Assembly (NCBI GenBank): GCA_000697665.1
Contig: KL197724.1
Coordinates: 700,695-764,694 of the forward strand
DNA from: Jaapia argillacea MUCL 33604
Lineage: Eukaryota > Basidiomycota > Agaricomycetes > Jaapiales > Jaapiaceae
Length of the DNA: 64,000 nucleotides
Reading direction: 5' to 3'
The notes beneath the pieces are model-generated. The model did not search any database, had not been told where the DNA came from, and saw nothing but the letters and a program-made list of their open reading frames with translations. This document shows positions 1,071-64,000 of this stretch, in pieces. A program made the position numbers and the translations under genes. Position 1 is the stretch's first letter. Each line of letters opens with the position of its first letter.

Positions 1071-4000
1071 ATGGAACCCGGTGAGTGTGCTGAAGGGAAG
1101 GCAGTCAAGGTACTGACCGTCCGATTCTCCAGATCAAGGCTCCTCGTTTACTCAGTTCCCCGAATCTCTTGAGGAGATTAGCCGGAGGCCTATCCAGTAC
1201 CCAAACACACTTCCCACTTGGCTCATCAAACTTGGAGGCTCTGCCAAGTGATTCTTTGGATCCCTAGGTAGCAGAGACGAAGACCTCGACACCACCATTT
1301 CAACCCTATCCAACAGATTGTCCCATTATTCTGATAGCCATCCCGAGAAATTTGTGCTTTTACAGGATCTTGCTGTCTGTCTCCAGACTAGATTTTACAC
1401 CTTGAGAGAGCTTTCAGATCTTGACAAAGCCATTCTACACCTGACTAGTGCAGCTAGTCTTGCTCCTCCTAGATTTTTAGATCTGCCAGTACTTCTTAGT
1501 AACCTTGCAAATGCTTTTGAAGCAAGGTTCAATGAGTTATATGATATTACAGACCTTAATATGAGCATTTTTTACCTGTCTAAAGCAGTTGATATATCAA
1601 CTACACATCCTCACAAGGCTTTATGGCTTCATACCCTTGCCTTTTGCCTTGAGAAGCGTTATGATAAACTTCACAGTTTGCCTGATATTGATAAAGCTAT
1701 AGACTGTCGATTAGAAGCAGTCAATCTGGTACCCTCAGAGAGTAATATCATTGCAGATGGTCATCCTGAACTGGCATCTCTTTTAGATAATCTGGGTAGA
1801 ACTTTTCGAGTTAGATATGAAAGACTTCACAATATTGTTGACATTGACAATGCAATTCAACATCAGCTACATGCAGTTCAGTTAACCTCTAAGCAACATT
1901 CAATGCTACCATCTCGGCTTAGTGGCTTAGGTAGTTCATATTATAGCAAGTTTGAAAGACAGGGAGAATTGAAGGATCTCAACACAGCTATTATTTTGCA
2001 ATCAAATGCTATTAACTGCACTACAGATAGTGATTTAGGAAAGCCATATTGGCTAAACAATCTTGCAGGCTCACTATTTAGCAGATTTCTCAGATTAGGA
2101 GATTTGAAAGATTTGGATATGTCCATTACTCATTGGCAAACTGCTATTAAGCTTACAGCTGAAGCTCATCCAGATATGGCAAAATGGCAGGGTGGTCTTG
2201 CAGCTTCACTTCATACTCAGTTTGATAGTGTAGGAGAATTAAAGGACTTAGATGCAGCTATTGAACATGGGACTAAGGCTATTGCTCTGATACCAACAAC
2301 TGATACTACTGCTAGTATATGGCAACATAATCTTGCCTTAAATCTGTATTGCAGATATCAACGGCTTGGAAATTTCCATGATCTTGAAGCTGCTATTTCA
2401 CAACAGTTATCAATTCTAAGTCAAACTTCAGAAGAAGATCAGGAAAGGCCAGCTCGCCTAAACAGCTTTAACAGCTTTCTACTAAGTAGATTTGAAAGAT
2501 TAGGGAATATTGATGATCTCAACCATGCTATACTACATCAACAAATTGCAGTGGATGTAACATCAAATGAATCTACAAAAAAACCTCTAAGGTTGAGCAA
2601 TCTTGGAATTCTTCTTAAAAAATGATTTGATCAACTCAATATCACAGAAGATATTGAAGCTGCTATTCAAAATCACAACACAGCAGTACAGCTAACACCA
2701 GAGAGTCATATTAGTATGCCTCTTCAACTTCATGCTTTGGGAGCATCTTATCAGAGCAGATTTAGAAGACTAGGAAATTCAAAAGACCTTGACAAAGCTG
2801 TTGCATGTATTTCTAAGGCAATTAATCTGACACCTGAGGGACATCCAAACAAAGTTGTCTGGTATAGCCATCTTGGCATCTATCTGGAAGAGAAGTTTGG
2901 TATCTTAGGAAGAGTTGATGATCTAGATACATCAATTTTAAACCAGCTTACTGCAATCAAACAAACTCCTGCAGATCACCCAGATTTACCATCTCGTCTT
3001 AATAATCTTGGTACAGCATTGCACTCAAGGTTTTCTAGACTAAGAACTATTGAGGATCTTAACACAGCAATATGTCATCAACAATCTGCTGTCAGCTTGA
3101 CTCCAGATCTACATCCACAAAAACCTATGAGATTGATAAATCTAGGAAGTTCTCTACATAGCAGATACATTCAGAATAAGAACATGGCTGATCTTGATGC
3201 AGCAATAATGTATCAATTAGAGGCTATAAAGTTAACAGTCACAGACCATCCAGATCTACCATTACTATTTGTTGCAATTGCTGTATCATTCTCTACAAAG
3301 TTTCAAGAATCTGCAGATGTTAATAGTCTTGAGATAGCAATTTCATACATATCTAAAGCAGTTGATCTGACCCCAAATGAGCACCCAAAGAAAGCAATGT
3401 GGGTAAATAATCTAGGGCTTAACTTAGGCTACAAGTTTGAGAATTTAGGAAACATTGAGGATCTTGACCAAGCTATCTACTACTGTATGCAATCAGTCAA
3501 ATTAACAGAGGCAAATAGTCCATATGCATGCTCACACCTCTTCAACCTTGCTAGTGCATATCAAAAGCGGTTTTTAATAAGTCATAAGTCAGAGGATTTA
3601 GAATTAGCCATTATCCATTTTGCTGAAGCTGCTCAGTCATCTGTTGGTGCTCCTTCTATTATGTTAGAAGCTGCAATTAAGTGGATAGAAACTGCTCATA
3701 TTGAGATGCATCTGTCTTTGATCAATGCATGTCAAATTGCACTCAAATTACTCTCTACAGTAGCTTGGGTGGGGTACCATATTCAACATAGACTATTACA
3801 GCTTCGTAACCTACCAAGTACAGCATGTGATGCAGCTGCTTGTGCAATTGAAGAAGGTCAATATTTAGTAGCTGTTGAGTGGTTGGAGCAAGGAAGAGTT
3901 ATTGTTTGGAAACAAATGCAGCAAACTAGGACATCTTTTAAAACACTCTCTGATACTTATCCAGAGCTTGCAGCACAGCTTCAAGCTATTGCCTATCAGC

Positions 4001-5303
4001 TTGAAACTGAAGGCATTCAAGCAGACAACTTAAATTCTGACTTATCAGAAGTAGTTGGTAGAAAATATCGTCAAAGTGCACAGCAATGGGAATTACTGTT
4101 GCATGATATTCAACTTCTTCCTGGCTTTGACTCCTTCCTACTTTCAAAGTCATTTTCTGAATTGAGGCAATCAGCTAAATCTGGTCCAGTTGTTCTACTT
4201 AATGCTAGTCAATATCGATGTGATGCCCTTATCATAACCTCTCCAACTACAGGTATCAAGCATATTCCATTGTCCACAGTCAATTTATCAGTTTTGAAAT
4301 ACTGGCATAGGTTAATGCCTCATTGGCCTGGAGGAAGAGCTGCTCAGGATGATAAGAGACATTTTAAGCAAAAAACTAAGCAGATCAATGATGATCCATA
4401 TGAGCTACTATTGGCTCAGATATGGATATCTGTAGTGGAACCAATTGTGACTCAACTGAATTTGAAGGTATGTCATTATAAGTCATTTTTCTTGATTCTA
4501 TATTTATAAATCACAATATCTCTTGATAGGAGACCATAAATATACCTCATATATGGTGGTGTCCAGCAGGTGCTTTTGCCTCTCTTCCTTTACATGCTGC
4601 TGGCAATTATAAAAGCAACATATCAATTATGAATTTTGCAATCTCTTCCTATACTTCAACATTAGAGGCTCTTATACCTCTTTTACCATTTGAACCTGTT
4701 TCTCAAATAAAATTGCTTGCCATTAGTTAATCTACAACACCATATGCATCAAATTTACCTGGAACTGTACTTGAAATAGATGCTCTTAAAAGAAACATTT
4801 CAAAGGAGGTGATATTTAATTTACTTGAGGGGTCAAATGCTGTTATAGAGACAACTCTACAAAAAATGTCAGAGTCACATTGGTGTCATTTAGCTTGTCA
4901 TGGGGTCCAGAACTCTGATTTGCCCTTAGATAGTGCTTTTCTACTATATGATGGGCATTTAACACTGTCAAAGATTCTACAAAAAACATTTCCACATGTT
5001 CAGTTTGCATTTCTCTCAGCTTGTGAGACTGCCAAAGGTGATGAGGGTCTATTAGATGAGGCAACTCATTTAGCAGCAGGATTGCAGTTAGCAGGATTTC
5101 ATAGTATTATTGCAACACTCTGGTCAATCAATGACAAAGATGGGCCAGTAGTAGCAGATGCTGTTTATCACCACTTGTTCAGGTCAGAAAATATACCAGA
5201 TTACAGACAAGCTGCCTATGCACTCCACTATGCTATTCTCAAGCTGCAGAAACAGAGTGTCTCCTTTGCCAGATGGGTTCCCTTCATCCATATAGGAGAA
5301 TAA
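1071..5303 (+). pseudogene. TPR-CHAT protein gene with three in-frame stops
   Basis: A 10-nt first exon (1071-1080) is followed by a 52-nt intron and one long frame to 4467, a second intron (4468-4529) and the terminal exon to 5303. The protein is a tandem array of about 50-residue TPR-like repeats with the recurrent pattern LxxLGxxxxxRFxxxGxxxDLDxAI. A C-terminal CHAT (caspase-like) domain keeps both catalytic positions, His in CHLACHG and Cys in FLSACETAKGDE. Three in-frame stops occur, at 1249-1251, 2623-2625 and 4728-4730; the first two sit where other repeats carry Arg before Phe. Splice sites and frame are otherwise intact, suggesting recent loss or unusual decoding. From about 1.3 kb onward base composition turns AT-rich and CpG-poor, unlike the neighbours. 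TPR-CHAT proteins form large families in Agaricomycetes, where NLR-like roles have been proposed; function here is inference. Confidence 0.85.
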
Positions 5304-8264
5304 GTGAGATGTATTAATGTTTAGTAAAGAGAGTGAGTTTAATTATTCAACATATTGATGTATTTATTCAACTGTCAGCAATATAACCACAACTTAATTT
5401 TAGGGTCATTTTTCTTTTTAGTCCAGAATTATCCATATTCTAGGATGTACTATATCATGTAACAAAATCTTGTAAATCAATATATCTATTCTGAAAAAAA
5501 ACAACCTGAGAAAAGCAATTAATGTAGGTAAGTATTAGCAATCACTTTAGGCTTCATTTTGCCTCATGTATGAAAGGTAGCAAGACCTTACTATTTTAAG
5601 TTGATGAACACCTCAAAGATAAGCTCAAATATTCTCAATCCCATATCTTAGACCATTCAGATAGATGTGAAAGTGGTGGAAGGTAGATTTGACAGAGTGG
5701 AGCCCAACTGAGTGTTGTCGAGGGTTCAGCGCAGGGGCCTGATAACACTCAACTATCAACCATGGAGCCTGGCAGTCAAGGCGATCACACAGGATAAGAC
5801 CTAGTAAGCGTACAAGCGTTAGGCTAGGTAATGATTGTCAGGATCGTAATACATCATAAGGAACATAACAAGTGACTTACTCCTCAGTAGCACAGAAAGA
5901 ACTGAGGAGCTGTACAGGCAAGGGCAGTCTTATATACTACAGGGAATGTGGCAGTGCCTGAGCTGTGTGACATCAGCAAAAACAGGATGAGCATAGAAGC
6001 CCAGATAAGCCCATATAAGGTATGTCAGGGTAACAACCTTGCTGGTTTTCACCCTGTTCTTATAAGATATGTTGGAATTTGATTTGAGCTGTGGTCCGAG
6101 CTCACATGAACATTGCTCCCTTTTGGCCTTTGGTAACCTTATTAGCCGTTCCCTTCCCTTCCTTTGGTTCCTAGATACAAGATTTGAGTACATATGCCTG
6201 GCTTGTGTCGTAGATTTTCCCTTTGCACATTTGCAAGGGTTCTCTGCTACAATCCGAATACCCTGCTGGTCTCTCATAATTTCAGAACTTTGAGCTTGCC
6301 TCAGGCTATTTCAACAAGATAACCATTTGGATTACCAAGGTGTCCCAAACCCTTGGCAAGGCTTCACAAGGATGTGGATTTCGACATTCTGGTGTGCAAT
6401 TCTAGGGGTTTCTTGGGCTTGTATGACATGATAAACCTGCACTATACCCACTACCTATGAATCACCTATGAAGTTCACTTTTGCAACTCGCCCGAGACAT
6501 TTTTGACCACTCAAATGTTAGTTAGTTAGGAACAATTCATTTCACGAGGATTATATAATACATGTGAAGGAGCAAAAATTTCCATCTACTACAAAAATCC
6601 CTATGCTACAAAAACACCAGAGACGACAATCTGCTCACTGCAACACTGCCCAACACCCAAATTGATGACTGTCAATCGGTGATGCTCCACAGCCAGCAGT
6701 GGACGAGCAGTGTGAGAGCAAGCCAAGCAGAAAATGGAAGGCAAAACAGAGGGAAGAGAGAGAAGGATACGATGTTGAAACTAGGATAGTCAACTTATAT
6801 ATACCAGTTGAACAGTTGTGCTTGTTTGGTGTTTGATGGCTTCAAATGATGGTGGCAACAGACCTGGAACACTTCTGGAACTCGGATGAAATTCCTTGGA
6901 ACAAATTGCACAGTTGGAGTGAAGCAACTTGTGAAGTCCATTTTTCTCTTGGAGGGCATGTCCTGAAGGGACGAGCAGGCAAAATAGGATAGAAGAGTAG
7001 TACAATAATTCTTTTTTAATTCCCTTTATGAACTCCATTTCTGCTCCTGCTCCCCATCTGAGTTGATATTGTGCCATTCATAGTGATATTGTGCCATTCG
7101 TAGCGATATTGGTAACCGTTGATAAGGCCTTGAAAACACACATAACCGGATTACCAGATGGTAAGGCATGCCCCAGTTGCCGCCGATTCCCCAGGGCTTG
7201 TAAGCAGCATATAAGGCAATATAAGGGTTGATCTGGGTTGCTGATGCTTACAAAGCCAGCAAGGGACTGCCAGAAATTTACACTTTCGCTGATGGAAGGC
7301 AGGTACAACAATAGCAAGGGAAAAGCAGTCCATATGCAGTACAAAGCATGGGAAGGAATGTGGCAGTGTGGAATTCCTGGTCACAGAATGGGACCAGGTC
7401 TCACTCAATATTTGCCTTATGTCGAACAAGTGATGGGCAAGTTGACGTGTGTTGATTGGTTGCTGATAACTTTTGCTTTGATTGGCTACCCCTCAGTATG
7501 ATGTAATAGTGTGGTCCATCTTTCAAGTTGTTGTAGTCCACTGAAGCATTACCCCCATTCCCCCTCACCCTGCAACATCATGTTGCACCGTCATTGAGTC
7601 TGTTCAGTTCACAATGACAAATGCAAGGAAAGAGCTATTTTATACGAGAGTGACCAGGTTGCCCAGAGGGCGTGATTATAATGAAAAGTCCAAAACGGAA
7701 CAACAGAACAACGGAACAACAAACCAATGGTGAGGAACCTATTCCTCAACAACACTGAGTGTTTAGCTGATGATTCAACAATGTATACTGAATGACTCAA
7801 AGATAAAGGAGAAGATTAGACATGAAAAGTTCATAAATGAAACATTGTTTGCAAGGCACACCAGCAGTAGTCAGATTCTAGTTGTTGTGTGAAGGAAAGT
7901 CTCTGCAAATGGTGCTGACCTGCTTACAATCTCATAATTTATGCTGTACTGTCTAGAGGACCAGGAGTGGAGTTAAGATTCATGGGTGCAAGGGAGAGGA
8001 TGTGCAATAACAACACTATCACTATCATGAATGAGAAGAGATGAATCATGAAGAGTATAGATGTAACTTCAACTTGAACCAAACCAGCTTTTCCTTAACA
8101 CAATTGACCAATCAAGCATTCAAAGGGATCCCCACGATGTAGAGTTCGAAACACCGCCATCCGATGGGCCCTAAAGTAAGCATGGAGAATGGATTGATCC
8201 TGTAAGGAACCATGCACTACGAAATACAACGACCAAGATGATAGGAAGCGGGTCACCGACAGTA
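5304..8264. other. AT-rich, CpG-poor non-coding block
   Basis: About 3 kb without a supportable gene. It continues the low-CpG composition of the preceding TPR-CHAT gene and ends near the proteasome gene, where composition returns to normal. The largest open frames are under 120 codons, overlap on both strands and resemble nothing I recognise. Pieces around 5.7-6.1 kb and 7.1-7.5 kb look like decayed repeat DNA, but I found no convincing terminal repeats or coding domains, so no element is named. Confidence 0.5.
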
Positions 8265-16051: not shown

Positions 16052-16709
16052 TTTGAAGGCGATGTCGAGGGGATTGTTAGTTATCATTCCGAGGAGGGGA
16101 AGACTCTCACAGTACGGCGACGGGTGGAAGAGGGCGTGCAGGAGAAAGGGGCAAATTGCAAGTTGGACTCACCGTACATTTCGAATGATGTTATTGGAAG
16201 TGTTCCCAACGCGTAGCCTTGTCCTCTATTTCACGCCTGCTCCCGGACGGGAGCCCCAAGAAGGTATCAAGGGGCTCCCCAAGCCAAATATGGTGGAGGT
16301 ATTCTTTGACGTGTCATCGACAAATCTTGCGTTGGGGATCTTCTAGGAAATGGAAAGCGAGTTGGAGGTAACAGCCTAAGTATCCACCTTCAGAGTGCGG
16401 AATAAAACTGGCGAAAGCCTCTGAAATGCAGGAGAGGAAATTTCCTCACATGCAAGGAAGAGAGAATCACCAAACGTGGTAACTCGAGATATGTACTCAA
16501 CCGAATAGAAGACGCAGCTGACTAGACTCCTGGAGTCAGTTGTCGTCGATCGAGGAGCGGTGCGGTGCTGTGCATTGCACCGCCGACAGGACACTCCACT
16601 AGAGTTTGAACTATCTTATATTTAATGGCTCCTCTAGCCTCTGGAACTGGTATCTCCCTTTCTCCCCGCCATCAAATCCACCTACCTGCTACCATTCAAT
16701 TTGTGGTCA
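16052..16709. other. Intergenic, promoter of DUF4419 gene
   Basis: Contains the residual homologous stretch to about 16216 noted for the W-rich gene and a strong inverted repeat near 16558-16582 (GCGGTGC, 8-nt spacer, GCACCGC). The second unit lacks this hairpin in intact form. Nothing else is supportable. Confidence 0.4.
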
Positions 16710-18201
16710 ATGCCTGTTACCTTCACCGTCGCTTCACACTTGGCGAACCCTGTTCGCCAACAATATCGTCCCAATACGGTTGATCTCTTCCTCAGCCAGG
16801 CATGCGACGGGCCTTGGCAAGAATGCGAAGAGTTGCTTCGGTCTACTATTGGGAAGGATGACATTGGATCACTCTTACCCCATCAGAATGGATTCTTGGA
16901 TACTGTAGTAGCAGCCTACAGCCAACACCATCATCTCAGTATTAGGTTCGTAGCCATCATTTTCTCACGAACTTGCTGGTGTTGAAGGTAGCTCGTCAAG
17001 ACCTGATAATGTATGGATTGCAATCCTGACCCAGCTCAGCTTCTAGTGAGTATCGAAGTGAAGGAACTTGTTTGCTTGCCTCTGATCCCCGCTCTAGCAT
17101 CAATGCGAATGCAGAGGAATTACGGTCCCAATTCGTCGCTCATGAGGGAAAGAAGGAACTCGTTGTGCGTGCAGTCGGCACCCGATACACATTTGATTGG
17201 GGAAAGTTTGCGCTCGTGATGACTGAGAAACTCGATGAAAACGTTGGTACACACATCATCGATACCTTCAATTCCTAGTTGACATCTACACCAGCTCGTC
17301 GATAAGGATTTGAAAGAGTGGATCATGCCGACGTTCACCACGACCACTGTCATTGATACAACTATATTTGCGATTCAGATGATGTCCACTCTCAAATCGT
17401 CAGTCTTCCCACATTTATTCTCTCTATATCCTAATTTCTCCGACAAGATATTTTGATTTCAAAGCCCATCTCATGTGTGGTATCCCGTCCGTCACGTTGC
17501 AAGGCGAGAAATCCGACTGGGAAAATCTCCTTTCTCGCATCCCCAAACTCGCTACATTCGGTGAAGAAGCGGCCCACTGGGCCGACCTGCTCACCCCCAT
17601 TCTTACCCGCTTCGTTGAAGCTTTCGACGGCAAACCGGATGTGGAATTTTGGAGTAGGATTGCGGACAGTCACCATAACGGTTCTGGTCCCAGTTACTTC
17701 TCTGGGTGGATCACCGCCTTCAATGTATGGGACCAAGATGGCAAATGGGTTGACAAGACCTGTTTGCTACGTGCGGATATCTCCTCCAATCCCCACCCTC
17801 CCAAATCAATACTTCCTGCCGCCGGCTCCAAGAAAAAGGGAGCCAACGGATTTGACGATTGGACTTTCCACACACAAGAATCGATTCGTCAAACTAGTCT
17901 TATCCTAGACGGACGTCCCTATCCCATCATCGATAGCACTGAATCCGCTCCTGGGTTCTGCACCGTCGACGTCAAGTTGGACGATAATGGTGAGCTGTTG
18001 AATACGACGATGGTCGCAGGTCACTTTGCTTGTAGGGTTGAGGGGGACAAGGGGGATACGTTGAAGCCAGAGCCCGGATGGTTTATGTTTGTGAAAGGGG
18101 AGAAGAAGCAACGGAACCCTTGGGCGCACCAACTCCTCGAAGCTACTCCAGTCGTCATTGAGAACGTGGAGGTACCCGCGAAGAAGGGGAAATGCTTCTG
18201 A
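16710..18201 (+). CDS. DUF4419-domain protein, intact copy
   Basis: Five exons (16710-16945, 17001-17045, 17098-17242, 17295-17398, 17448-18201) give 427 residues. The whole protein fits DUF4419, a fungal domain of unknown function: an N-terminal all-helical part with DNVWIAILTQLSFY, the VTLQGEKSDWENLLSRI motif, then SGPSYFSGWITAFNVWD and a C-terminal GHFACRV...EPGWFMF segment. The donor of the third intron is weak (GTTGGT) and may be placed slightly differently, but the frame requires an intron there. No signal peptide or membrane segment is visible. It lies in unit A of the tandem duplication, and the downstream copy is broken, so this is the functional member. Confidence 0.85.
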
Positions 18202-19084: not shown

Positions 19085-20577
19085 ATGCCTGTCACTTTCA
19101 TCGTCACTGAGCATGATGCGAACCCTGTTCGCCAACATCAGCGTCCCGAGACGGTTGATCTCTTCTCGGCCAAGCGTGCCATGCGCCGTGGCAAGTATGC
19201 AAAGAGTTGCTTCAGTCTACTATTGGGAAGGGTGACATCGGATCCCTCTTACCCAACGATAATGGATTTTTAAATACTGTGGTAGACGCCTACAGCCAAC
19301 ACCACCATCTCATCATGAGGTTCGTAGTTATCACTTCCACGCGAACCTGATGTGCTGAAGGTGGCTCGCGAAGACCCGATGATGTGTGGATTGCAATCTT
19401 GACCCAGCTCAGCTTCTAGTGAGTATCGAAGTGAAGGAACTTGTTTTGCCTGCCTCTGATCCCCGCTCTAGCATCAATGCGAATGCAGAGGAATTACGGT
19501 CCCAATTCGTCGCTCATGAGGGAAAGAAGCAACTCGTCGTGTATGGAGTCGGCACCCGATACACATTTGACTAGGGAAAGTTTGCACTCGTGATGACCGA
19601 GAAGCTAGATGAAAACGTCCGTATACATATCATCAATGCCTTTAAATCCTGGTTGACATCTTCGCCAGCTCGTCGACAAGGATTTAAAAGAGTGGATCAT
19701 GCCGACGTTCACCACGACGACTGTCATTGATACAACTATATTTGCGATTCAGATGATGTCCAGTCTCAAATCGTCAGTCTTCCCTCATTTACCTGTCCAT
19801 ATCCTGAACTTCTTCAACCAGGTATTTTGCTTACAAAGCCCATCTAATCTGTGGCATCCCGTCTGTCACGCTGCAAGGCGAAAAATCTGACTGGGAAAAT
19901 CTCCTCTCTCGCATCCCTAAACTCGCAACCTTCGGTCAAGAAGCGGCCCACTGGGCCGATCTGCTCACCCCCATTCTTACTCGCTTCGTTGAAGCCTTCG
20001 ACGGCAAGCCGGATGAGCAATTTTGGGGTAGGGTTGCCGACAGTCACTCCAACGGCTCTGGCCCCAGTTACCTCTCTGGATGGATCACCGCCTTCAATGT
20101 CTGGGACCAACATGGCAAATGGATTGACAAGACCTGTTTACCACGTGCGGATCTCACCTCCAATCCCCACCCTCCTAAATCAATCCGTCCTAAGTCAACC
20201 CGTCCTCGCACCGGCTCCAAGAAAAAGGGATCCCGTGGATCTGAGGGTTCCACCATACAGGCATCGCTTCGTTCAACTACTCTTAAACTAGACGGACGTC
20301 CCTATCCCATCATCGAGAGCACGAAATTTGCTCCTGGGTTTTGCACGGTCGACGTTAAATTGGACGATAATAGTGAGCTGTTGGATACGATGATGGTCGC
20401 AGGTCACTTTGCTTGTAGGGTTGTAGGTAAGAAGGGGGACACGTTGAAGCCAGAGCCCGGATGGTTTATGTTTGTGAAAGAGGAAAAAAAGAAAAGCAAC
20501 GCTTGGGAAGACGCTTAACTTCTCGGAGCTACTCTAGTCATTGAGAATGTGGAGTGAAGAAGGGGAAATGCTTCTGA
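19085..20577 (+). pseudogene. DUF4419-domain gene, broken copy
   Basis: Same exon order as the gene at 16710-18201 and starts MPVTFIVTEHDANPVRQ. It is broken by a small deletion-type frameshift soon after DLFS (about 19160), by a TAG in place of the Trp codon of TFDWGK (about 19572), and by indels in the last exon that bring an early TAA near 20515. The VTLQGEKSDW and SGPSYLSGWITAFNVWD motifs remain recognisable. It is a decayed duplicate with no sign of a rescued frame. Confidence 0.85.
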
Positions 20578-29138: not shown

Positions 29139-29145
29139 TGACGTG
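29139..29145 (+). promoter_or_regulatory. UPRE-like TGACGTG site
   Basis: TGACGTG lies 176 bp upstream of the HAC1-like ATG. TGACGTG(G/A) is the unfolded-protein-response element recognised by XBP1/ATF6 and is related to fungal UPREs. The position fits positive autoregulation, as known for HAC1 in yeast and XBP1 in animals. Binding is not shown. Confidence 0.4.
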
Positions 29146-29320
29146 TCAATTGCTCTTTCTTCACGACCTCCACGTAGCCGTCCTGCGTCTTAGCCGACCG
29201 CAGTTCTCCATATCCTACAAGACTAGCATTCCTTCAGTCTTACGTCCACTTACACGTATCTCAAACGTAGTCCATCATCACCCCCACCTTCTCCATCTCT
29301 GATTCCTATAATCACCAACC

Positions 29321-30501
29321 ATGTCGACCTCTATCAACCCCTCGTCACTCTCATTCCACTCACCCTCCCCGGAACCATCGTCTTCCAGCAATAAACGCTC
29401 GGTCTCTCCCTCTGAATCCGACTCCCATTCGAATGCAGGTAGCTCACGCAAGCGCCAGAGGACAGATCTGTCCGCTGAAGAGCGCAAAGACGCTAGGATG
29501 CACAGAAATCGCATCGCAGCTCAAAATTCCCGCGATCGGCGCAAGGCTCATTATGCCCACCTCGAACAGCGTGTAGCTGAACTCGAAGAGGAGAACCGGA
29601 GACTGAGAGCTGGTATGGCTGTGCCCTCCGTTCTCCCACACCGGTCCGAGACCGAGAAGGTGGAAGAGAGAGAACGGGAGAAGGCAAAGGAGAGGGAGAA
29701 CGAGGAGCTGAGGGAGAGAATTAGAACTCTAGAGAAGGGTTGGGAAGCAGTCGTCAAAGCCCTAGCGGCTCAAGGTCTGCCCACCGGCCTCTCCACAGCG
29801 CTCTCCTCGACCTCGTCGGAACCCCTCCCACCGTCAAATATTCCCACCATTGTTCCCACAACACCCATGTTCCCCATTTCCCCTCCATCGACCCTCGCCT
29901 CCCTCACTTCCAGCCCGAGTTGTTTTGTCCCCTCACCGTCAATGTCATCAGCTGATGAATTTGAGCCCACTCGCCACCTAGCACGGGTGGCGACCATCGA
30001 TCCAACTTCGATGCCCCTGCAGCGGGTGGACTCGATACCAATCAGCTCGATCTCGACATTAGCGCACGGGACTTCCACCACCAACTCAACGGCACACAAT
30101 TCGCTGACCCTACGTCGACGACGAATAGCCAATCAGCAGTCGATGAAGCAACTATGGAAGATCTTCTCCGTGAGATCCTCGCGGCTTCTCCCACCATCTC
30201 GTCGACGTCTTTACCTTCTGACGAGTCCATCTCATCATCCTCACCCCTCACCTCTCCAGCACAAGTCCCGTCCACCTCCACGTCCTCCGCGACGCAAATG
30301 ATCAACGAGTCTCATTATATGGACGAGGACTGGGAGAGTGAGAGTAATAAGGAGATGCAGAGATTGATTTTGGGCATGTTGCCTCAAGTATCGTCGGATA
30401 TCCGCGTCGAGACCGTCGACTTTCCATCGGCTCTGAACTTGGAGCTTGGTGGATGGGATCTGGAGAACGTCTTACCTCCGTCCCAGGTCGGCGTGTTCTG
30501 A
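29321..30501 (+). CDS. HAC1: HAC1/XBP1-type bZIP transcription factor
   Basis: Translation from 29321 gives a bZIP near residues 43-100: RKRQRTDLSAEERKDARMHR, then NRIAAQNSRDRRKAHYAHLE and a Leu zipper (LEEENRRL). RNRxAAQxSRDRKKA in the basic region is diagnostic of Hac1/XBP1. The first frame ends at 30301 with an Arg/Pro-rich tail (326 residues). A second frame, clearly protein-like (LDTNQLDLDISARDFHHQLN, later MEDLLREILAAS and an acidic DEDWESESNKE), runs to 30501. Removing the predicted 38-nt Ire1-type intron at 29982-30019 joins the two into a 380-residue protein. Such splicing activates the unfolded protein response from the ER. The C-terminal half made by splicing would be the activation domain. 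A long pyrimidine-rich 3' flank follows. Confidence 0.9.
29982..30019 (+). other. Predicted Ire1-type unconventional intron
   Basis: The 5' site lies in a hairpin with a 6-bp stem (GCCACC 29973-29978, GGTGGC 29986-29991) and 7-nt loop TAGCACG, cut after the third loop base. The 3' site lies in a hairpin CCC/GGG (29-bp region around 30014-30026) with 7-nt loop CTGCAGC, the classical CNG/CNG Ire1 loop, cut after 30019. The excised 38 nt shift the frame by exactly the amount needed, and the junction codon GCA is preserved. No GT-AG pair of suitable length does this. Position +3 of the 5' loop is C rather than the usual G. An alternative 5' site at 29951 (CAG/CTG) would remove 68 nt with the same frame result. 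Confidence 0.65.
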
Positions 30502-39100: not shown

Positions 39101-40355
39101 TGTGACAGAGTTCACGCATCAATATACTGCCCCTCAATGAAGGAAAAATACCGCTTACGTTGTACATCGTGATAACAATAAACAACTCGGTCGTCCTCCC
39201 CCACTCGTTTTGTCTCAACGAAAACCCACTCTTCTCGAAGTCATCCGGATCGCAAGTGACGGCAGTATACCTAGTCTTCATCATCTCATGCTCTCCGTAC
39301 CTCGGCAGAATCAATTTGGGTGGCACGTCCAACTCTACGACCAAATTCCCGTTTGTCAACTGAACTTGACGTTTCGTCTTGTGCCGACGATGAATCCGTC
39401 CTGAAGGCGCTGGACCAAAGTGGAGTGTAGGTAAGGGGGTTTGGGGACCAGACGAGGTTGTCATGGGCGATTTTAAGCTTTGGTCGGTAGGCGGGTGTTC
39501 GACAGCTGTTGCGTCGAGGTATTGAGAGTATTCGCCTGAAAGGGCAGCTTTCTCTGGGTCGTATGGTAGATGATTATGGTTGATATATTGAATACTCTCG
39601 TCTCCAACAATGTGGTAATCTTCATCGTCACCGAAAGGAGTAGGTGAACGAGATCGCGGAGGAGGATGAAAAGAAGCGCGAGAGTATGTGCCGGAGGCGT
39701 AAGCTTCAGTGTCGTGATGAAAATGGTCGATTCCAGCTGGGGGTACCTGTGAATCTGGTCTCTGGTACATGTCTGAACCCGGTGGGATCATGTTGGGATA
39801 CACGGGAGGTAACGGTAAAGGGGGAGGTTGGGAAGGTAGAAACTGCAAGTTTGGCGGATACATTTGTGACATCGGTTTCTCTGGATAGTATCCAGTTTCG
39901 GGTGTATCATAGGTGAACGGGTCGTTTGGAGGGTGTGGCATCAAGTCGTTCCACACCAAAGGTTCGCCGGACTGGATAGTCGGTAGGTAGGGGGCTGGAG
40001 AAGGCTCACGATATTCGTCCTCGATCTTCTTGAATTCCGCATCCAAGTACCCTCTCTGCTCTACCATAGTCGCTGCAGACGAGGCACTTTGCCTGGAAAT
40101 GGAAGCACGGTCACTGCTAAGGCTTTCCTCTGGTATTTGGGGTAAGCCTCGGGTGGGCGATCCACCCGAAAAGCGATTCTGCAGTTGTGATACCGCTCGG
40201 TCGATGAGATCGTACCCAGCGGGGGCTACAGGCGGGTCGGACAGAGAATATCTCCTGGTGTCTGATAGTTGTGACTGATTGTCTTGATAGTAAGTTTGGT
40301 CGTCCGAGTCGTCTTGTATAGTTTTGTACGTCGGTACCGGCTTTCGAAGGGGCAT
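36139..40355 (-). CDS. Chitin synthase (GT2, division 1)
   Basis: About 18 exons, roughly 1,050 residues. Exon 1 (40355-39159) codes a 330-residue disordered, Pro-rich N-tail and the start of the catalytic domain. Landmarks: [22 protein letters not shown] across the first junction, [42 protein letters not shown] made by three short exons (38362-38280, 38229-38207, 38157-38051), [15 protein letters not shown] made with a 14-nt exon (37995-37982), [20 protein letters not shown] with the QRRRW product-binding motif, then about seven TM helices. It adds GlcNAc from UDP-GlcNAc to growing chitin at the plasma membrane. The class (I-III) cannot be fixed by eye. The start at 40355 is the first ATG of the frame. 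Paired ACGCGT boxes lie upstream. Confidence 0.93.
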
Positions 40356-58671: not shown

Positions 58672-59022
58672 ATGGCCTACAGCGATGATCGTGAGTGGAT
58701 TTATCTCCTCGACTAGACTGCTCGTTCTGATAATTGAGGTCTGAAGACTATCGAATGCGCCTCAACAACTTCCTTCAAGGAAGAGGGGTCGCATCCACAT
58801 TAACCTGGGAAATACACCAAGCTGGAGCAAATCATGCTCCCGTTTGGACCGCGATTGCTTACTGTATGTGACCCCCATCGTTACTCTCCTCAAATTCCAA
58901 CCCTTTTCGTAGTGAACCACATCGAGTATGGCCGAGCAACGTCGAAAACTCAGGGGGGAGCCAAAGAAGAAGCCGCTCGCTTGGTACTCTTTGCCATTGC
59001 CGCCGATAGCGGACGTCGGTAA
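58672..59022 (+). CDS. Small single dsRNA-binding-domain protein
   Basis: Three exons (58672-58690, 58747-58863, 58913-59022) give 81 residues that consist of little else than one dsRBD: YRMRLNNFLQGRGVASTLTW, then HAPVWTAIAYLNHIEYGRAT and the helix GGAKEEAARLVLFAIAAD. The pattern (helix, three strands, helix with AKEEAA) is clear, though the usual KK pair of helix 2 is only partly present (SKTQGGAKEEAA). Alone-standing dsRBD proteins can modulate RNAi or RNA editing; the role here is unknown. An alternative 3' splice beyond 59022 cannot be excluded. Confidence 0.75.
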
Positions 59023-59440: not shown

Positions 59441-59443
59441 TTG

Positions 59444-59467
59444 TGTCCTGAGCGGATTCGAACCGCC
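59444..59467 (-). repeat. Extra tRNA T-arm and 3' acceptor fragment
   Basis: Immediately after tRNA-His on the same strand there is a second T-arm (GCGG TTCGAAT CCGC) followed by TCAGGACA, i.e. a tRNA-like 3' end without a matching 5' half. It resembles, but is not the same as, the 3' end of the adjacent tRNA. Confidence 0.55.
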
Positions 59468-59480
59468 TTGAATCGGAAGG

Positions 59481-59561
59481 TGTCCCGACGAGGATTCGAA
59501 CCTCGGGCTTCACGGATTGCAATACCACAACGTGATGATTTGACCACTAATCGACAGGGAC
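59481..59561 (-). tRNA. tRNA-His(GTG) with 9-nt intron
   Basis: Sense strand starts GTCCCTG (acceptor), D-arm GAT...ATC, anticodon stem TCACG/CGTGA, loop TTGTGG + C with anticodon GTG, T-arm CGAGG TTCGAAT CCTCG, 3' acceptor TCGGGAC and discriminator A. The intron TATTGCAAT sits one base 3' of the anticodon, the canonical place. The acceptor has one mismatch and one wobble. Internal A and B boxes are present. Confidence 0.85.
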
Positions 59562-61821: not shown

Positions 61822-64000
61822 TCATCGCGGCGAGACAGAGCCACTCTTATCCTCCATATAAGTGCTCGTGATTTGCTCCAGCTCCTCCCTGTATCGTTTG
61901 TGGTCGTCGCTCAGACGCAGCAATCCATCAATATCCATTAAATCGTCAGCGCCGTCAGATAGATCTGACGTGTTTGCGTCGCCGTTGTTGAACCGTTTCA
62001 GTAGCTGCTCGATTTTGCTCTTTTGAGAAACAATCTTTTGGAAAGTGGTGATATATTCGGGATACGATGCATCGTAACGAGCTCTCAGACCTTCATGATC
62101 TGTAGGAAGGGGCTCAGGCTGTGGTTTTGGATGTGAGCGTGATGGAGTGGAACGACGAGGACGAGCTTTTGATCTTGAAGTCGGCGGGGAAAGATCCTCA
62201 GCGTCATCTTCATCATCTGAGGATGTGTAAATGGGAGATTTCCGACGTGAGAGCTTGTGGGTTGGAGACGAGTGCGATTTGGTAGCACGGTCTCTGCCTT
62301 TGTCTCGGTCGTGCTCCCGGGCGCGTTCTCTTTCCCTGTCCCTTTCCCTGTCCCTTTCTCTTTCACGTTCTCTTTCCCTCTCTCGCTCTCTTTCCTTTCC
62401 TTTTTCCTTTTCTCGCTCCCGATCCCGCTCTCGTTCCCGATCCCGCTCTCGGTCCCGTTCCCGGTCCCTTTCCCGTTCCTTTTCTCGCTCCCTGTTCCTC
62501 TCTCTGGAGCCTGGTGCCGGTGACTCCTCTCTCTTGATTCTCTTCAGCTCTCTCTCACGATCAGTCTTGGCGACAGAGGTATCCCGATCACGACCCCTCT
62601 GCGAAACATCTTCCACCCTCCTTCGTTTGGTAGACCCATTGACAGCATCCCTATCCGAAGCAATAGATTCGTCGTCGTCATTGAGAGCTGGCTTCTTCCT
62701 CTTCATCCCCGTAACACTCAGCTCTCTCGAGTCTCTTGCCTCCCGAACCTCTTTGGAAGCGACCCTCTCCTGCCGAGATACAACTTCGGACTCCCTCGAT
62801 TTCTTCGCCACTTTCGCCGTTCCTAATCCAGGCTGAGTCGACTTGGTCTCCCTTACTGCGGGCGGAGGTATGGGAGGAACGGCTTTGGCGGGTCCTGAAG
62901 GGGCCGGCTCTTCTCGCCTTCCAGACCTGGCGTCGACAGGTCCCGTCCTCTTCTGTACCCTTTGAAGATTCGCTGGGTCTCCCGGGGCGGGAGCATTGGC
63001 AGACATCGGGGTCGAAGGAGTTGGGGTCGTAGTTCGTGAAGTATTGGAATTCGAGGCCTTGAATCCCGATCCTGGTAACCTCCGAACTGGAGGTTTGGAG
63101 GAACCCGCCGTAGGGGCAGGCGTGCCAACCGAGGAATGAGCTGCAGAGGCAGCGGGTGTTTGTTCAACTCGTTTCACCCGAGCAGGAGCACTTCTACTCT
63201 CATCCTTGGCTGTTATCTCCACCTTGGCCGCTCGAGACTTCGCAGTTCCAGTCCCAGCGCCCTCCGCCTTTGGCTTGGTTTTCTTCTCCTTCGTCTTCAT
63301 CAACCCTGACCCGGTGCTTGTACCAGCGGTCGTCCCATTGACAGGTGTATTCGTGCTGGGACCAGGAAGCGCCATAGGAGTATTGGCCGAACGTCGGTAC
63401 GCCACATGACTCCAGACAGGATCGGTCTGAGGGATCTTAAGATCACTAAACGCCAACCTCGCTTTCCTGGCCAAAGCGGTCCGTTCAGCTTCGGTAAGCT
63501 TGGGCCACTCATAAGGGCGGACTTCTCGCCAAGCTTGATTCTTCAGCTGCCAGCCTCGGGTTGAAGGAGAGGACTGTGTTCCCTTCACGGGGGGTGGTTG
63601 CTCAGCCAACTGATATAGCAAGATAGTCAATGAAAGGCGCGACGAAGTCAGAGAATAAGAGACTGACTTCGGCAAGGAGATCGAGGAGGATTTGGCGAGT
63701 GGATGCGTCATAATCGGCACCTCCGACCAACTTCAAAACCTCTTCCGTCGTCCGCATGCTGACAGCTAAGCAATGAACCAGCCTCTTCCTCAAGGGCATT
63801 ACCGTCTCCTTGGATGGCGATGTAGGCGCAGACGCTGCTGGCCGAGGCGAAGCAACTCTGGAAGTTAAATTGGAAGCGGGCACAGAAGATGGCCCACTAC
63901 GAAGATGCTCCGCTTGAGATGCCAACTTCTTCGCTGCAGTGATACCACTCGAACCAGAAGTTGCTGGCGCCTTTCTCTTCTTCCCGTTCACCGATGGCAG
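61822..64000 (-). CDS. ELL-like RNA polymerase II elongation factor (5' end beyond window)
   Basis: Two exons seen: beyond 64000 to 63668, and 63609-61822. The N-terminal part has KRLVHCLAVSMRTTEEVLKL and the segment GWQLKNQAWREVRPYEWPKL, like the ELL winged-helix region. A long disordered linker rich in Lys, Pro and Ser follows, then an Arg-Glu/Arg-Asp dipeptide repeat. The C-terminus is an occludin/ELL-type helical domain: YDASYPEYITTFQKIVSQKS, then RLSDDHKRYREELEQITSTY. ELL stimulates transcript elongation as part of the super or little elongation complex. The family call rests on both ends agreeing; the 5' end is missing. Confidence 0.65.
62320..62510. repeat. Hexamer-rich coding repeat (Arg-Glu/Asp tract)
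   Basis: Tandem TCCCTT/TCCCGA-type hexamers on the + strand code a near-unbroken run of Arg-Glu and Arg-Asp dipeptides on the minus strand inside the ELL-like gene. Such tracts vary in length between strains and occur in nuclear speckle proteins. Confidence 0.8.

Follow-up and report, generated by a model that had tools for sequence, protein, structure and literature searches.

A gene at positions 29321-30501 of the forward strand of the 64,000-nucleotide (nt) window that we analyzed (Jaapia argillacea MUCL 33604, GCA_000697665.1, contig KL197724.1, forward-strand positions 700,695 to 764,694) is, with a probability of roughly three in four, a HAC1/XBP1-type gene with a predicted 38-nt Ire1 intron at 29982-30019. 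That an Ire1 intron of some length lies in this gene is predicted with greater confidence still. A nonspliceosomal intron at 29982-30019 is the best joint account of the change of reading frame, the switch in codon usage, the hairpins, and the exon-exon helices. The initial annotation had proposed a HAC1-like gene with a 38-nt Ire1 intron, and as a prediction this proposal is supported by the phase of the frames, the codon switch, the unique hairpin pair, and the z score of the fold.

Two overlapping reading frames

Exon 1 (29321-29981, frame A) starts with an ATG and encodes a basic RKRQR stretch, a bZIP domain, and a Ser/Pro-rich linker. In the unspliced form, frame A continues up to the stop codon at 30299-30301, and the resulting open reading frame (29321-30301) specifies 326 amino acids (aa), with the bZIP domain followed by a basic, Pro/Arg-rich tail (29982-30301). 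Frame B is open on the same strand from 29965 to 30501 (178 aa) and overlaps frame A by 337 nt; its portion from 30020 to the stop codon at 30499-30501 constitutes the predicted exon 2, which encodes an acidic C-terminal region reached only after splicing. A second coding frame running over the end of the bZIP frame had been noted initially; both frames are indeed present, and the codon scores favor frame B past 30020.

The switch from frame A to frame B requires the loss of 3n + 2 nt, and 38 leaves a remainder of 2 on division by 3. Deletion of 29982-30019 joins the two frames into a product of 380 aa without any stop codon and with GCA as the junction codon, just as the initial annotation had it. 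The net charge of the two tails is opposite: −20 for the 160-aa spliced tail, counted from the junction, versus +17 for the unspliced one. Frame B gave no Pfam match at an E value of 1 or better, and the unspliced frame A tail contains no strongly hydrophobic stretch. The openness of this tail is mildly unusual; when 12 other open reading frames (ORFs) of the window were read in both shifted frames, 106 of 3901 and 261 of 3901 overlapping 107-codon windows were open.

The bZIP domain and the upstream element

The bZIP domain (residues 53-97, positions 29477-29611, forward strand) was recognized by the Pfam models bZIP_2 (E value of 5.3 × 10−11) and bZIP_1 (E value of 2.6 × 10−9). Among six reference fragments, SSRKRQRTDLSAEERKDARMHRNRIAAQNSRDRRKAHYAHLEQRVAELEEENRRL aligned best with human XBP1 (score 143, 31/54 residues identical), followed by HacA (98, 22/47), yeast Hac1 (92, 19/47), CREB (84, 17/40), JUN (70, 20/39), and GCN4 (54, 14/34); the assignment to the XBP1/HAC1 subtype is based on these fragments. 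A search of the PDB with the bZIP region returned 12 sequences at an E value of 0.01 or better, with CREB at the top (7.1 × 10−4) and C/EBP and JUN next. The bZIP domain looks to be of the HAC1/XBP1 type, and orthology to HAC1/XBP1 is likely because of the fragment alignment scores and the PDB matches.

The sequence TGACGTGTC at 29139-29147 (forward strand), 182 bp upstream of the ATG, is a possible autoregulatory element. It has the core ACGTGTC in common with the yeast UPRE2, CTACGTGTCT, as spelled in the available text of PMC4836707. It constitutes weak evidence, because the 2 matches to TGACGTGKC found in the 64 kb compare with an expected number of 0.92. One other copy of TGACGTGTC occurs in the window, at 16307-16315 on the forward strand. 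The same part of PMC4836707 presents HAC1 and hacA as regulating their own expression, as cib1 of Ustilago maydis probably does; the cib1 promoter carries a UPRE, to which the candidate element upstream of the present gene would correspond.

Codon usage at the frame change

Codon log-odds for sub-regions were trained on 13 hand-picked other ORF stretches of the window. Between 29321 and 29981, frame A had the best score in all four of the sub-regions examined. Past the predicted intron, frame B exceeded frame A at 30020-30169 (+5.2 versus −0.7), 30170-30225 (+3.6 versus −0.6), and 30302-30501 (+5.2 versus −11.5), while 30226-30301 ran against this trend (+1.6 for frame B versus +4.6 for frame A); over the whole of 30020-30301, frame B reached +10.7 and frame A +3.3.

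We also scored change points and junctions, with 12 training ORFs for the change point. The best single change point was 30009, and the points at most 2 nats below it span 29971-30015, not all of them contiguous; 29981 and 30019 fell 2.4 and 2.9 nats below the best, respectively. Position 29951 scored 5.8 nats below the best, a figure that overstates the case against a 68-nt intron since this scoring includes the intron codons. When intron codons were excluded from the scoring, the 38-nt model obtained 46.8, ahead of introns of 41 nt (46.3), 68 nt (43.8), and 71 nt (43.3) and of the GT-AG introns 29987-30045 (45.2) and 30170-30225 (34.3), so that its margin was 3.0 nats over 68 nt, 1.6 over 29987-30045, and 12.5 over 30170-30225. 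By codon score, the 38-nt model ranked 900th among 13,200 in-phase junctions. Collectively, codon usage narrows the switch to the correct 50 nt and mildly prefers the 38-nt intron without choosing the junction.

Hairpins at the predicted splice sites

At the level of the sequence, each candidate splice site falls within a hairpin loop of 7 nt in which a G precedes the cut (↓), and the initial observation that two such hairpins flank the 38 nt at 29982-30019 was correct. The 5′ hairpin (29971-29993) has a perfect 8-bp stem, TCGCCACC/GGTGGCGA, and the loop TAG↓CACG (29979-29985), with the cut after 29981. The 3′ hairpin (30012-30028) has a 5-bp stem, TGCCC/GGGTG, including 2 G-U pairs, and the loop CTG↓CAGC (30017-30023), with the cut after 30019. 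The predicted fold also contains an intron-internal hairpin of 6 bp, CATCGA/TCGATG, at 29995-30013, and all three lie on the forward strand. Four hairpins within 29321-30501 combine a 7-nt loop whose third letter is G with a stem of 4 bp or more including 3 Watson-Crick pairs, and two of these four are the proposed splice sites.

The motif of Saccharomyces cerevisiae Ire1 is given in the available part of PMC8104961 as CNG↓(C/A)NGN. The 3′ loop fits it at every position, in agreement with the initial annotation, and an RNA with a 7-nt CUG↓CAGC loop is cut similarly in vitro by the Ire1 proteins of S. cerevisiae and S. pombe, as far as described in PMC6037481. The 5′ loop departs from the motif at +3 (C, not G), which had been recognized at the outset, and also at −3 (T, not C), so that the mismatch then reported is not the sole one. 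This departure lowers the claim without settling it, because the motif is that of S. cerevisiae Ire1, and looser specificity is described for S. pombe Ire1 and for a mutant S. cerevisiae Ire1 (PMC6037481 and PMC8104961, available parts). As a caution against the 38-nt reading, the HAC1 of Candida glabrata, which is without the consensus, is reported in the text at hand to remain unspliced (PMC6116095).

An in-phase hairpin pair of this kind occurs once in the window, both strands included; none of 4000 dinucleotide shuffles of 29820-30310 produced one. The pair criterion (in phase and at least this good, or two canonical loops) was set after the site was known, so that this chance figure somewhat overstates the case. 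In predicted folds, the pair probabilities of the 5′ hairpin were at least 0.84 in nine contexts containing it, with an additional U-G pair that closes the loop to 5 nt. The 3′ hairpin accounts for a minority of the predicted ensemble, with a pair probability of 0.10-0.18 in contexts of 91-1501 nt and of 0.01-0.03 in contexts of 31 and 71 nt; in long contexts, exon 1 is a further partner of its 3′ arm. Forcing both hairpins cost 2.6 kcal/mol. The predicted intron and exon 2 share the heptamer CGGGTGG, at 29984 and 30023, respectively.

Predicted exon-exon helices

Two predicted exon-exon helices enclose both splice sites. Their 5′ halves lie at 29941-29970 (outer, 29941-29956; inner, 29961-29970) and their 3′ halves at 30022-30060 (outer partner, 30041-30060; inner partner, 30026-30035) of the forward strand. 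The fold of 29930-30070 had a z score of −4.9, and the inner part at 29961-30035 alone had one of −3.3. In a scan of 933 windows (60-nt steps from 8001 onwards, 40 shuffles), into which the window 29940-30060 had been put by hand, this window showed the lowest z score (−5.5); in a finer scan (20-nt steps, 25 shuffles), it was 6th of 2794, with a z score of −4.5. Other strongly negative folds of the forward strand were observed at 40120-40240 (z score of −4.9) and 58740-58900 (−4.1 to −4.7).

After splicing, the predicted inner helix would be formed by CCACTCGC of exon 1 and GCGGGTGG of exon 2. An RNA zipper is reportedly the subject of the paper by Peschek (2015). The predicted helix resembles the zipper-like structure by which, according to the accessible part of PMC6037481, the XBP1 exons are held for ligation.

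Alternative accounts of the frame change

The alternative that fares best, although we consider it unlikely, is an Ire1 intron with other cuts, either after 29951 (68 nt, or 71 nt when combined with 30022) or after 29981 and 30022 (41 nt). All three lengths are in the right phase, their codon scores lie near that of the 38-nt intron, and both CAG↓CTGA at 29951 and CAG↓CGGG at 30022 match CNG↓CNGN letter for letter. The 5′ site after 29951 had been put forward from the start; its heptamer CAGCTGA does conform to the consensus, but the stem around a 7-nt loop at 29949-29955 amounts to 0 bp, and these positions fall within the predicted outer helix. A cut after 30022, in turn, would fall at position 6 of the 3′ loop and not at position 3. 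The folds of the spliced junctions separate these candidates: the z score was −5.2 for 38 nt, whereas the 41-nt product folds best (−6.0) and the 68-nt product loses the exon-exon fold (−1.0). In a scan of exon-exon folding across 2114 in-phase junctions, the 38-nt junction was not singled out, ranking 137th, with the 68-nt junction 1010th; when the comparison was limited to the 68 junctions bounded on both sides by G↓C or G↓A, the two ranked 7th and 41st, respectively. The longer options would also be in keeping with the HXL1 intron of Cryptococcus neoformans, which is longer than 38 nt (PMC3154848, available part).

Clearly less probable is a single-base error of sequencing or assembly, or a recently acquired frameshift, at about 29971-30015, in which case the gene would consist of one continuous frame without an intron. 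The codon change point suits such an indel as well as it suits an intron, very short gaps near 29972-30009 score best by codons, and a CCCC run is located at 30014-30017. However, an indel leaves unexplained the in-phase hairpin pair that the shuffles did not reproduce, the exact CTG↓CAGC loop, and the z score of the fold.

Improbable to a similar degree is a spliceosomal intron, for example, 29987-30045 (59 nt, GTGGCG...TCAG) or 30170-30225 (56 nt, GTGAGA...CGAG). Both leave an open frame once removed, lengths of 56 and 59 nt are normal for fungal introns, and the codon score of the former comes close to that of the 38-nt model. Nevertheless, the donor of 29987-30045 is poor and a match to the branch point is missing from it, and 30170-30225 has a poor acceptor in addition to its low codon score. 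The initial annotation had stated that no conventional intron repairs the frame. In formal terms this is incorrect, as 380 frame-restoring GT-AG, GC-AG, and AT-AC junctions exist (about 20-300 nt, donors in 29600-30301), but it holds for the fungal intron signals that we assumed (GTRNG donor, YAG acceptor, YTNAY branch match, about 44-90 nt): under these signals there is no frame-shifting candidate, and the one candidate in the bZIP gene, 30170-30259 (90 nt), leaves the frame unshifted. None of the 380 junctions is convincing by codon scores and assumed signals together, while codon usage alone spares 29987-30045. The same signals find a candidate intron at 9037-8975 (63 nt, GTGCGT...TAG) in the proteasome gene of the window, which fits the protein by eye.

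Finally, programmed −1 ribosomal frameshifting between frames A and B might be suggested by the long frame overlap and the strong RNA structure, but it is scarcely credible, as no heptamer of the X XXY YYZ form begins within 29940-30301 and the bZIP domain resembles a family that uses Ire1 splicing.

Other features of the window

Pfam was run on ten of the 38 ORFs listed for the window. A chitin synthase N-terminal domain (E value of 4.2 × 10−25) and a proteasome subunit (E value of 5.6 × 10−20) were detected, the former pointing to a fungal source. The neighboring forward-strand ORFs at 17383-18201 and 19808-20518 look like near copies by translation, possibly from a recent tandem duplication, and the former encodes a DUF4419 protein (E value of 5.8 × 10−54). 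Long ORFs extend over 1252-5303 of the forward strand, the first one scanned having TPR-like repeats below the Pfam cutoff, and an ORF at 61822-63732 of the reverse strand contains a long Arg/Glu/Asp-rich low-complexity run. The GC content falls to 0.38 at 2001-6000 and is 0.43-0.55 in the rest of the window.

Only one Rfam match in the window reached the gathering score, a serine tRNA of the reverse strand with the anticodon cga, the boundaries of which differ between ARAGORN (59443-59532) and Rfam (59481-59561). Within the bZIP gene, Rfam gave 8 weak matches, all under the gathering scores of their families. A scan of viral contigs for relatives yielded 12 pattern matches, none of which was confirmed by tblastn.

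Comparison with known HAC1/XBP1 systems

The main survey of HAC1/XBP1 introns is said to be that of Hooks and Griffiths-Jones (2011). The present gene has the same 3′ loop as animal XBP1, CUG↓CAGC, but only this loop fits the consensus here, whereas both loops of XBP1 do so; a further difference from XBP1 is that the unspliced tail is devoid of any strongly hydrophobic stretch. As in ascomycete HAC1/hacA, hairpins stand at both ends of the predicted intron and the frame changes to a new C terminus, whereas the bZIP identity to ascomycete HacA and Hac1 (22/47 and 19/47) is weaker than that to XBP1.

Among the basidiomycete cases described down to the sequence, HXL1 of C. neoformans comes nearest, as presented in the available text of PMC3154848. 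As in the present gene, a nonspliceosomal intron is located downstream of the bZIP region and stem-loops are predicted at its splice sites. The HXL1 intron is 56 nt long versus 38 nt here, both lengths leaving a remainder of 2 on division by 3. Whereas both borders of the HXL1 intron read CAG, this triplet is limited here to the 3′ border, the 5′ border reading CAC; in addition, a conventional intron of 55 nt precedes the bZIP region in HXL1, while the frame here is open without one. The same text reports that no pairing between the intron and the 5′-untranslated region (UTR) was found for HXL1, and none was found here either: the predicted intron paired with the 151 nt before the ATG, taken as a stand-in for the 5′ UTR, no better than shuffled sequences did (P = 0.8). 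The long-intron HAC1 genes of yeasts differ in this respect, as their intron pairs with the 5′ UTR and blocks translation. A further basidiomycete homologue of HAC1 is cib1 of U. maydis, from which, according to the accessible part of PMC6918084, an unconventional intron is removed by Ire1.

Such introns, as far as the sources available give their lengths, comprise those of C. albicans (19 nt), A. fumigatus (20 nt), S. cerevisiae (252 nt), and C. parapsilosis (626 nt), with almost 850 nt reached in a relative; overall, these sources hold values of 19-29, 56, 252, and 379 nt and, in one yeast clade, a range from 152 to almost 850 nt. The XBP1 intron measures 26 nt (PMC4490496, available part), compared with 38 nt here. 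A literature search at the level of titles and the beginnings of abstracts returned no 38-nt HAC1 intron, which is not proof of its absence from print. The kind of system described here is known; the intron length and the asymmetric loops may be new.

Proposed mechanism and significance

We propose that the product of the gene would activate the unfolded protein response as a bZIP protein of the HAC1/XBP1 type. The unspliced mRNA encodes the 326-aa protein with the bZIP domain and the basic tail. Upon endoplasmic reticulum stress, Ire1 would cut after 29981 and 30019 within the two 7-nt loops, and the predicted exon-exon helices would hold the loops together. The CCACTCGC/GCGGGTGG helix could then push the intron aside and keep the ends in place for tRNA ligase. 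The joined mRNA would give rise to the 380-aa protein, in which the acidic C terminus presumably serves as an activation domain.

The difference between the two loops leads us to a more tentative suggestion. The Ire1 of this lineage might need only G↓C within a very stable hairpin, together with a strong zipper, at the 5′ site, and might keep CUG↓CAGC at the 3′ site; the code would then be asymmetric, with one loop read by its sequence and the other mainly by its structure.

HAC1 genes of basidiomycetes can be hard to find. As far as the available text goes, the genome paper of Pycnoporus cinnabarinus reports Ire1 and Trl1 and no clear orthologue of Hac1/XBP1 (PMC4101180), and a first search of C. 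neoformans with full-length proteins failed (PMC3154848). The combination of a bZIP domain, a frame change, a hairpin pair, and a zipper offers a search template for related fungi. The work on specific and promiscuous Ire1 proteins, in the part of PMC8104961 available, raises the question of how loop specificity drifts; if TAG↓CACG truly is the 5′ site, the present gene would test how far the loop specificity of Ire1 can drift with splicing kept.
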